Source of the DNA: Desulfuromonadales bacterium
Lineage (GTDB): Bacteria; Desulfobacterota; Desulfuromonadia; Geobacterales; Pseudopelobacteraceae
NCBI GenBank assembly: GCA_013349405.1
Contig: DUZS01000009.1
Coordinates: 1-64,000, forward strand
Direction: 5' to 3'
DNA: 64,000 nt
Part shown: positions 2,830 to 51,020 of the stretch, in pieces
How the letters are laid out: the number at the start of each line of letters is the position of its first letter
How positions within the stretch are numbered: position 1 is the stretch's first letter
Translations under genes and position numbers: made by a program
The notes under the pieces: generated by a model
Told to the model about the DNA's origin: nothing
The model's database searches: none
Seen by the model: the letters and a program-made list of their open reading frames with translations, nothing else

Positions 2830-2953
2830 TTCCAATGCCGAATCAAGGCGCTCTCATCGTTGGCTCGTCTTCGGCTCCTCAACATACTGGTAGTATGCTT
2901 TCGTCGCCTCAATCCTCGCCGCCTTGATATCACTCTTGATCTAGCATTGGTAT
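2830..2953. repeat. dispersed palindromic repeat, copy A
   Basis: About 124 bp filling the gap between the convergent PilZ and flavoprotein genes. An inverted copy lies at 39917-40041, with about 8 differences over the length. The outer arms are inverted repeats (CCAATGC...ATCAAG at the left, CTTGAT...GCATTGG at the right). An inner pair ATCAAGGCG/CGCCTTGAT and a central hairpin CATACT-ggt-AGTATG are also present. There is no ORF and no transposase. It resembles a REP/MITE-like or structured-RNA element. Confidence 0.85.
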
Positions 2954-39907: not shown

Positions 39908-39916
39908 GAGTATCTA

Positions 39917-40041
39917 ATACCAATTCTCAATCAAGAGTGATATCAAGGCGGCGAGGATTGAGGCGACAAAAGCATACAACCAGTATGTTGAGGAGCCGAA
40001 GACGAGCCAACGAAGAGAGCGCCTTGATTCAGAATTGGAAT
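39917..40041. repeat. dispersed palindromic repeat, copy B (inverted relative to copy A)
   Basis: About 125 bp between the eno terminator and the pgi ribosome-binding site, reverse-oriented relative to 2830-2953 and ~93% identical. Outer arms are CCAATTCT...AATCAAG and their complement. Where copy A has G-C at the outer stem, copy B has T-A, so the base pair is kept. The central hairpin (CATAC...GTATG) is also kept. Confidence 0.85.
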
Positions 40042-40066
40042 AATGAATAATCACAGGAGGCCTCCA

Positions 40067-47851: not shown

Positions 47852-49267
47852 TTATTTTGGCGCAATAACTACTGACGCGCTTGCAACAAAAACCTCTTTC
47901 TTCTGCAGTCCACCGCTTTCAACCTCAACCTGTCCACGCAGTTCCTGACCTATTGAGGTATTCTCCCGTACTTTCACATCAAGATTTATTTGTACCAGCT
48001 GTCCTATATCAACTTTATCGACCGTAAAAACAAGCGCTCCGTTTGACTCCTGCTTAAATGGAGTGTCAGAACCGCCTTGAAAATCTATCTGTGGCGGCAG
48101 TTGTAGGCGAACTGTCAAGTTCTGAGCGGACTGAGACCCTGCATTAAGAACTGCCACACGATAGCTAAGCTTTTCTCCCGGAGTAACTTTCGGCTTGACC
48201 AGCTTCGCAACGGCGCGAACAAGCGGAGCAGAGCATATGACAACGGTTTCTTGCTTGAAAGCGATATCACTGAATTTTGCTGAAACTGCATGAACCGACA
48301 GCAGAGATCGATGGCCATCAACCATCTCGAACGGCATCCTGACATGCAAAGAACCCTTGAATGTTTCACCGGAGGCAAGCTGAAGACGAGTCACGCTTTC
48401 GTCCGGTTTGCCAGGTTTTGTCAGTATGACTCCATACTCCCTGGCTGCAGAAATGTTCAGCAGCAGCTCTTCACTGCTGTTGCCCCTGTTAGTGATTTCA
48501 AGCGGAATAACACTGCTGCTGCCAATCGGAAATGACCCCGCGTCGTTGCGAAGAGAGATGGCAATTTTAATATTCTCCTTGGCAAGCTTCTCAGCGAGCA
48601 GACGCTCTTTTTCCCGGCGCTCTTCTTCAAGTTTGATTTTTGCCAGGCGCTCTTTTTCCAATCGTTCTTTTTCGAGGCGTTCTTCTTCAAGCTTGACTTT
48701 GGCCAGGCGCTCTTTTTCCAAACGTTCTTTTTCCAGACGTTCTTCTTCAAGTTTAATCTTAGCCAACCGCTCCTGCTCAGCTTTCGCTTTTGCAATGCGC
48801 TCCATCTCCAGTTTCATTTCAGCAGCACGCTGACGGGCAATTCTGTCATTGCTTACCTGACGCGCTACAGCCTGCAAGGTTTTATCAGCCGCAAGAACGT
48901 CGCCTTTCTGATAGCGATGTGCGAGAGTCATCAACTCATCTTCAACAGATGTCTTCAACCTGCTTTCGGGAAATTCTTTCGTAAACAGGGTAACAGATTT
49001 AGCTGCTCGCTCATTATTTCCAGATTTAAGACTGGCTCTGGCAATGAGAAGTAACGTTACATCCCTAAGAGGGGACTCAGGGAAAACCTGATTTAATTGA
49101 TCGCATTTTTCTATCGTCAGCAGGTAATCTTTCTGCTGATACGCATTAAAAGCCTCAACAAATACAGTTGAGTCATCAATTTCAGCTGACTGGCCGGGAA
49201 CAGAAAAGGCAATGACGACGAACAACGAGAAAACACCCACAACAACTGATCTTAGAAATGATTTCAT
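47852..49267 (-). CDS. exported protein with TPR-like, coiled-coil repeat and Ig-like regions
   Basis: 471 residues from ATG 49267 (GTG 49282 possible). A signal peptide (VGVFSLFVVIAFSVPGQSA) is followed by a TPR-like region (~30-130; FNAYQQKDYLLTIEKCDQLNQ). A highly charged coiled coil (~160-240) is built from tandem 20-residue units (RLEKERLEKERLAKIKLEEE), and two beta-rich domains follow (~240-471). The last domain (PLVRAVAKLVKPKVTPGEKLSYRV) looks like a DUF11/CARDB domain. It may span the periplasm. Family not recognised. It begins right after rpoD but ends at the terminator. Confidence 0.75.
   Translation of the reverse strand: MKSFLRSVVVGVFSLFVVIAFSVPGQSAEIDDSTVFVEAFNAYQQKDYLLTIEKCDQLNQVFPESPLRDVTLLLIARASLKSGNNERAAKSVTLFTKEFPESRLKTSVEDELMTLAHRYQKGDVLAADKTLQAVARQVSNDRIARQRAAEMKLEMERIAKAKAEQERLAKIKLEEERLEKERLEKERLAKVKLEEERLEKERLEKERLAKIKLEEERREKERLLAEKLAKENIKIAISLRNDAGSFPIGSSSVIPLEITNRGNSSEELLLNISAAREYGVILTKPGKPDESVTRLQLASGETFKGSLHVRMPFEMVDGHRSLLSVHAVSAKFSDIAFKQETVVICSAPLVRAVAKLVKPKVTPGEKLSYRVAVLNAGSQSAQNLTVRLQLPPQIDFQGGSDTPFKQESNGALVFTVDKVDIGQLVQINLDVKVRENTSIGQELRGQVEVESGGLQKKEVFVASASVVIAPK
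48601..48780 (-). repeat. 60-bp tandem coding repeat, three units
   Basis: Three consecutive 60-bp units in phase (48601, 48661, 48721) encode the repeating KERLEKERLAK(I/V)KLEEE coiled coil of the preceding protein. Units two and three differ at only a few positions, which suggests recent duplication. Confidence 0.85.
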
Positions 49268-49271
49268 ATAG

Positions 49272-51020
49272 TTAGTCCACAAAACTCTTTAATTTTTTAC
49301 TGCGGCTCGGGTGCCGCAGTTTACGCAGTGCTTTTGCTTCAATCTGCCTGATTCGCTCACGGGTAACTTCAAAATCATGACCAACTTCCTCAAGGGTATG
49401 GTCACTTTTTTCACCGATGCCAAATCTCATGCGAAGTACTTTTTCTTCCCGGGGAGTCAGTGTTGCAAGGACCTTGGCGGTACTCTCAGAGAGATTATTC
49501 TTTATGACCGCCTCAATAGGAGAAATGACCCCCTTGTCTTCAATGAAATCTCCAAGATGAGAATCCTCTTCCTCGCCAATTGGAGTTTCAAGCGAAATTG
49601 GTTCCTTGGCGATTTTAAGAACCTTGCGTACTTTGTCAAGCGGAAGTTGCATACGTTCAGCTATTTCTTCCGGTGATGGCTCCCGACCGTTTTCCTGCAC
49701 CAACTGGCGGCTGGTTCGTATTAATTTGTTGATTGTCTCAATCATATGGACTGGAATGCGGATCGTACGAGCCTGATCGGCTATTGCACGGGTAATAGCC
49801 TGGCGAATCCACCAGGTTGCGTAGGTTGAAAATTTATAGCCGCGCTGGTATTCAAATTTATCGACGGCTTTCATGAGCCCGATATTCCCTTCCTGAATAA
49901 GGTCAAGGAATTGGAGTCCACGATTGGTGTATTTTTTTGCAATTGAGACAACGAGGCGCAAGTTCGCCTCAATAAGTTCACTTTTTGCGATACGGGCCTT
50001 ACATTCACCTTCTTCAATCGCTTTCAGTGCCGCAGCAAGATCACGAGCCTTAAAGCCGGATTCCTGCTCTACTTTATGGATCTTGCGAGCCGCAATTCTC
50101 AGACGTTTTTCAATTCTCGCCGTCTCTTCTTCATCTAACTTGAGCTTGCCAAGTTCTACGGTGCATTTTTCATCTTCATTCTGCAGTTTATCAAGCAGAG
50201 TTTTTAATTTTTCGAAAGAAATGATTTTTTCAAGATCAGATAATTCTGCCTGTAACGTATCCACTTTTCCGGAAAGATCTTTCAGGCGTTCGGCAACTTT
50301 ATTGGTATGACGATCTTTCAGCCGCAATGATTTGAGAAGCTCCGCCTGACGATCTTTCCCTTCGCGTAACTTCTTTTCAAATTCTTTCTTTTTTGCCGGT
50401 GATTTTGCTGCCGCTACTGTTTCAGAAATTTCTATCAAAAGCTGATCCTGTGCAACAATCGCATCAATGATATCGAGTATTCTGGTCTTTTGGACATCTT
50501 CTTCATCGTCTTCCAGAACCTCTTCTTCAACCTCTTTACTGACCTCAGAAGGTGTCATCAGAAACTTGCGCAGCCGATCTCCCAGAGAGATAACTTCCTT
50601 AACGGTAATTGGCGTATTGAGTATAACGCCGGCAACATCACGTTCACCATCTTCAATCCGTTTGGCAATTTCAACCTCACCCTCGCGGGTAAGGAGAGAA
50701 ACAGAACCCATTTCACGCAGATACATACGGACAGGATCGCTTGTACGTCCAATTGAGCCGGGTTCGAATTCTACCTCTTCCGACTCTCCCTCTGCTTCTT
50801 CATCGTCGTCAAGATCACTTTTCATCTTCGGAATCTTGATCTTCTGAGCTGAATCGACTATTTCAATATCAAGGTCTCCGAACATACCCATGACATCTTC
50901 AATCTGATCGGTCGCTATGTCAGGCGGAAGTATGTCATTAACCTCGTCGTAGGTTAAGAACCCCTTCTCTTTTCCTATGTCAATCAGTTGTTTAACGTCG
51001 TCAATATTTTTCTTTGCCAT
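49272..51020 (-). CDS. rpoD: RNA polymerase primary sigma factor sigma-70
   Basis: 582 residues. Region 1.1 is at the N-terminus. Region 1.2 has [13 protein letters not shown], region 2 has [20 protein letters not shown] and [11 protein letters not shown], region 3 follows, and region 4 ends [18 protein letters not shown]. An acidic non-conserved spacer lies between regions 1.2 and 2. This is the last gene of the rpsU-dnaG-rpoD (macromolecular synthesis) operon. Confidence 0.98.

Follow-up and report, generated by a model that had tools for sequence, protein, structure and literature searches.

A dispersed palindrome of Geobacterales is probably a non-autonomous, MITE-like element marked by a folded strand with two G·A modules

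Two copies of a palindrome lie within the 64,000 nucleotides (nt) of Desulfuromonadales DNA analysed here (the whole stretch is called the window), raising the question of whether they represent a REP- or MITE-like element moved in trans, a structured RNA or a binding site, as an earlier note on this DNA had proposed. We use the name GA strand for the purine-rich strand of the element. The two copies and their parts are as follows (TSD, target-site duplication; columns are those of the model described below).

2830-2952, GA strand minus: element copy A, a 123-bp imperfect palindrome
39918-40040, GA strand plus: element copy B, a 123-bp imperfect palindrome
2827-2829: TSD TAA left of copy A, which also ends the PilZ-domain ORF 2494-2829 as its stop codon
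2953-2955: second TSD TAA of copy A
39915-39917: TSD TAA left of copy B, 3' of the enolase gene and a terminator-like hairpin
40041-40043: second TSD TAA of copy B, 5' of the phosphoglucose isomerase gene
39965-39994, plus: apical module of copy B (columns 51-80), GA-C-GNA / hairpin / GA-G-GA
2876-2905, minus: apical module of copy A (columns 51-80)
39944-39949, plus: left strand of the basal module of copy B (columns 30-35, C-A-AGGC)
40009-40015, plus: right strand of the basal module of copy B (columns 95-101, AACGNNG)
2921-2926, minus: left strand of the basal module of copy A
2855-2861, minus: right strand of the basal module of copy A

Copy A follows directly on the PilZ-domain gene, beginning at its stop codon, and faces an FMN-reductase gene, and copy B sits between the genes for enolase (eno) and phosphoglucose isomerase (pgi). 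The two are mutually inverted and differ at 8 of the 123 element positions (94% over 125 nt by BLAST), as the earlier note had described, and they were the sole matches at E below 1e-30 when the window was scanned with the model, a third row being a weak reverse match of copy B. The bounds given previously (2830-2953 and 39917-40041) located the copies correctly and missed their extent, the unit measuring 123 bp and being flanked at either end by the duplicated TAA. The reported outer-stem change from G-C to T-A is real (columns 11/119), and the central hairpin is indeed kept in both copies. As a general description of the two copies, however, compensatory change applies to columns 11/119 alone, the sole clean compensatory pair among the eight differences: the changes at columns 14, 15 and 117 are one-sided, and in copy B an A replaces G at column 54, within a G·A module. 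Elsewhere in the window, an imperfect repeat array with a 15-base period (48603-48782) lies in the minus-strand ORF 47852-49282, which has YfiO/DUF11-type matches.

BLAST searches of the 3.43-Mb draft genome to which the window belongs (the own genome) returned 29 element matches, and the 22 full-length copies among them, which begin TWCC, were aligned (alignment A1) as the source of model R1. Target sites were read from 139 full-length copies, i.e., these 22, 56 from relatives and 61 fetched later. TWA stood on both sides of 73 of the 139 copies, and the two triplets were identical in 72 of these 73; overall, flanking triplets were identical in 79/139 copies (32.7 expected by re-pairing) and reverse complements in 2 of 139, and the next outer triplets were identical in 1/139. 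Consistently, the 61 later-fetched copies taken separately gave agreement in 28/28 TWA pairs, and a separate set of 16 copies from the named-genome scan gave 7/8. Because the TWA flanks are identical and the next outer triplets are not, we conclude that transposition of the element duplicates a 3-bp target, TNA. A survey of the eno-pgi spacer, in which 30 loci were examined from 39 genomes searched (the locus of genome G046 was not parsed), found it occupied in the own genome and in sister genome G013 and element-free, at 39-52 nt, in 27 further loci, none of them close enough to the own site for a single TNA to be read. The element also has terminal inverted repeats, with 90.9% of the cells of helix 1 paired. 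It carries features by which bacterial MITEs are recognised, being short (<500 bp), noncoding, dispersed in many copies, and bounded by inverted repeats and target duplications. The absence of an ORF or transposase noted earlier stands, in that no ORF within the 123 bp is of transposase length; this, the TNA duplications and the element-free spacers of relatives bear out the suggestion of a MITE-like element moved in trans.

The element is structured on its GA strand. With RNA parameters, the GA strand folds 5.9 (copy A) and 6.4 (copy B) standard deviations below shuffles, versus 1.6 and 2.1 for the opposite strand; this and the 29 genome matches show that the palindrome is no product of chance. 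In alignment A6 (81 copies, 80 of them distinct; 40 model pairs), 91.1% of cells were paired and both-side changes occurred in 36/40 pairs, compared with 17.2 in shuffles. Double-change cells numbered 309, versus 68.6 when shuffled and at most 77 with slid partners, and the covariation score was 0.329, versus 0.126 and at most 0.076, respectively; fitting A6 to the model tilts these figures towards pairing, a bias that the slid and shuffled controls address only in part. Column pairs 23/136 and 31/128 were mostly unpaired in A6. In the 22 own copies alone, the inner helices are nearly invariant and two of five pair measures were no better than shuffles, so that strong covariation becomes visible only once copies from other genomes are added. 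The outer helix held 164 G·U versus 71 A·C cells (90 versus 21 without pairs 23/136 and 24/135), and counted by pair, 17 were richer in G·U and 14 in A·C. DNA parameters fold both strands about alike (-19.2/-18.0 and -18.7/-17.6), and the strand bias therefore rests on the RNA energies and the G·U versus A·C counts. Taken together, the GA strand is under selection to fold into a long hairpin with two conserved G·A modules. The paired structure that the earlier note saw maintained by compensatory change is thus upheld, and what was to count against it, i.e., few further copies or substitutions that break stem pairs, is not what we found in the genome matches and the alignment.

The two modules, apical (GA-C-GNA / GA-G-GA) and basal (RAGGC / AAC-RNAG), lie mostly 14-15 nt apart. 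Some of the highest conservation in A6 falls on their non-Watson-Crick columns, namely, 51·80 (G·A, 74/81), 52·79 (A·G, 71/81), 54·77 (G·A, 75/81) and 56·76 (A·G, 74/81), and C53, A77, G78, A96 and C97 are invariant (81/81). Column conservation is 95-96% in the apical module, 90-94% in the basal module, 74-80% in the outer helix and 50-57% in the loop. Judged by their letters, the apical and basal modules appear alike when read from opposite strands.

The reading that we favour, at a probability of roughly 60%, is that these copies belong to a non-autonomous, MITE-like transposon family that is defined by a recognition structure on the folded strand and predicted to be moved in trans. The G·A modules would be putative binding sites of a protein, perhaps a dimer, since the module at one end is similar to that at the other end when the latter is read on the opposite strand. 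The enzyme acting in trans would be a transposase or integrase that takes up the element via its folded strand, as RNA or single-stranded DNA, and joins the TWCC...GGWA ends into TNA. The outer stems could then be rewritten freely between lineages, because pairing and modules matter rather than stem sequence. Several observations count against this explanation. No autonomous partner was found, in that the single DDE_Tnp_1 gene of the own genome (L386) showed no long terminal repeats resembling those of the element and the genes beside copies (257 places) included no recurring family except ordinary ones; DNA parameters, as noted, fold both strands about alike, and two model pairs are mostly unpaired. 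In addition, the GC skew of the flanks is negative for 87 and positive for 50 of the 139 copies (uncorrected for shared ancestry), so that the GA strand is more often the C-rich one, the reverse of what a simple lagging-template model of single-strand uptake would give. A replication-strand bias or selection is a possible source of this skew.

The foremost alternative, which we consider unlikely, is an ordinary MITE: its DDE transposase would see nothing but the terminal inverted repeat, and what lies inside would be a passenger, retained by chance or for host reasons. In its size, its inverted repeat and its TNA duplication, the element conforms to what the accessible text of PMC10969869 and PMC2229807 gives as typical of MITEs; a passenger interior should decay, yet the interior is the best conserved part of the element and the terminal stem the most rewritten. 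We also searched the enzyme profiles Y1_Tnp, DDE_Tnp_1 and RVT_1 (E 0.001). IS5-group elements make TNA duplications, and membership in that group would call for DDE_Tnp_1 in genomes with copies; this profile, the sole DDE family searched, was present in 8/14 copy-rich genomes and absent from 6/14. Genome G357 (a single contig, 99% completeness) carries at least 8 copies that are 94.5-99.2% alike, and had no match to any of the three profiles at E 0.001. Enzyme loss after movement, or another transposase family, is a possible account of this absence. The search for an autonomous form led to G046, whose eno site has a gap of 5.9 kb; this stretch contains a sensor-kinase gene and lacks the element (in a BLAST and ORF view only), and the candidate was rejected.

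Improbable, in our view, is a bacterial SINE-like element, in which the folded strand is an RNA that a reverse transcriptase converts back into DNA. RNA-like covariation and the G·A modules fit this idea, as do the five truncated own copies, all of which retain the same end; RVT_1, however, was found in 6/14 copy-rich genomes and was absent from 8/14, and six sister genomes hold single-ended partial copies without either one end or the other (e.g., L287 versus L288). The truncation bias was accordingly rejected as a sign of reverse transcription. Several apparent half copies were really full copies split by an insert.

We give a similarly low probability to a cis-acting mRNA device for stability or termination, comparable to ERIC or NEMIS and selected as such. 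Copies are often intergenic, and the target duplication coincides with a stop codon in 12/69 upstream same-strand genes and 32/63 downstream opposite-strand genes, leaving the gene intact. Against this, copies between co-directional genes showed no preferred orientation (29 sense, 24 antisense, p = 0.58); an orientation bias in a first pass with another gene caller (12:2 in the own genome, 17:10 in relatives) was given up on this larger set.

Slightly less probable still is an element of REP/REPIN type, its hairpin recognised by a Y1 (RAYT) single-strand transposase. REP/REPIN elements are likewise short mobile hairpins, with a GTAG/GTGG foot, and the present element is palindromic, dispersed and has a folded strand; moreover, the own genome has a single Y1_Tnp match, on the contig of the window beyond the window's end (L031, G000:C9:99599-99922). 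A target duplication, which is not expected of HUH Y1 enzymes, is nevertheless present, and Y1_Tnp is not associated with the element: it occurs in 288/395 genomes of the phylum, by hand tally in 47/61 element-positive and 241/334 element-negative genomes, and G357 has none. The REP possibility of the earlier note, in the strict sense of a RAYT-moved element, therefore finds no support. Finally, replication template switching that corrects quasi-palindromes, with the structure unselected, would account for complementary changes between the arms and is hardly credible, as it would erase the G·A mismatches that are kept in most copies (51·80 and 54·77, counts above) and both modules persist across rewritten stems.

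R1 found matches at E 0.001 in 69/76 genomes searched in the family and in 61/395 in the phylum, per-genome copy numbers being lower bounds (candidates were at most 45 and 8 per genome, under stricter filters). The apical pattern was found in at least 118 stretches of named genomes from at least 49 assemblies (hand count by accession prefix). Among the matches listed, these 49 included, going by their titles, 26 Delta/Desulfo/Geobacter-type, 4 Nitrospirae, 4 Acidimicrobiia, 3 Acidobacteria/Holophagae, 3 Firmicutes-type and 2 Omnitrophota assemblies and 1 each of Eisenbacteria, Elusimicrobia, Stutzerimonas kirkiae and 'Proteobacteria'; most are MAGs, in which single contigs may be misbinned. 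The basal motif stood on both sides at a constrained distance in 28 of 79 unique apical matches listed in the named-genome scan (0.10 in shuffles). In the minimum-energy fold, the apical C-G pair formed in 22 of 27 chosen far loci (absent from L145, L118, L122, L132 and L146) and in 101 of the 118 loci listed, many of which are copies from one MAG. Copies from other phyla have lower stems of different sequence that are yet paired, and R1 reaches them weakly: about 40 of the 55 scanned among the 118 listed loci matched at E 0.01, some away from the motif. Searched with Rfam covariance models, the window and 17 of the 118 listed loci gave no match to the element (only a tRNA). One plasmid matched (Trichlorobacter lovleyi pGLOV01), and phages gave no R1 match at E 0.01. 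A viral link was rejected: four viral contigs matched an 18-base pattern, none of these matched R1 at E 0.001, and the longer motif gave 0 matches. On this distribution we tentatively raise a broader possibility, to which we give less than even odds, that the element belongs to an unnamed superfamily spanning several bacterial phyla, the hallmark of which would be two opposed G·A modules on a folded strand rather than sequence ends; its enzyme would be other than Y1, DDE_Tnp_1 or RVT_1, perhaps a structure-reading protein, either of the host or uncharacterised, that is widely shared.

Variants extend the family in several directions. One deltaproteobacterial MAG (G465) gave 247 end matches, amounting to about 120 copies of a variant that is 186 nt long and flanked by CTAG; 40/40 scored copies were identical over 186 nt, and these copies are a very recent burst of movement. 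Single-ended matches in G465, considered as a candidate autonomous form, proved to be complete copies with a mutated end. The CTAG-flanked variants of G465 and Acidimicrobiia cannot reveal a duplication, because CTAG is palindromic. In G013, the elements of a subfamily (L278-L284) are near 200 nt in length owing to an additional hairpin of about 77 nt, placed at model column 83/84. In L285, L286, L291 and L292, the apical loop contains another repeat, of well-known appearance (CCCTCACCC...CCCTCTCCC), i.e., palindromes are nested in palindromes, and two copies from different genomes (L163:1659-1810 and L097:3282-3433) have their right arm interrupted by a CCTGTCCTGAGC...GTCGAAGGG palindrome.

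MITEs are usually seen as insertion-sequence ends around a meaningless middle. This element shows the reverse, a conserved middle between rewritten ends, and this pattern points to recognition via the folded strand. Integron attC sites, of which one folded strand is recognised by structure more than sequence, offer an analogy as a possible work-alike in idea only. If the favoured reading is true, a structure-reading transposition system is still to be found, and the copy-rich genomes are where to look; the family also provides a sensitive marker for unannotated repeats in Desulfobacterota-type genomes and MAGs.

In the accessible literature (PMC2700814, PMC12306157, PMC10969869, PMC2864571 and PMC2229807 included), subscription papers and supplements aside, we found no account of the cross-genus structure. 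Correia/NEMIS, ERIC and RUP, as outlined in the text available to us, are bacterial MITEs of 100-200 bp with stem-loop transcripts and share with the element an inverted repeat, a target duplication and a noncoding, dispersed character (PMC2229807); unlike them, for which few taxa and TA termini are listed there, the element has TNA, G·A modules and copies in many genera. Geobacter metallireducens has 24 'short RNA elements' with the central palindrome GRCGTAGCGCTGCTACGCC, also reported from G. sulfurreducens, G. uraniireducens and Desulfotalea (PMC2700814); going by the legend, they are likewise an intergenic family with a similar hairpin heart, and no mobility, fold or wide distribution is claimed there. 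Chunjie, a MITE of Geobacter uraniireducens (178-235 bp; 38 copies with repeats, 57 partial; PMC10969869), is likewise from Geobacterales, its size recalling the expanded 200-nt forms of G013, and by its description may be a member of the element family. Set beside the element by description, Chunjie and the 24 G. metallireducens RNA elements are the nearest published leads.
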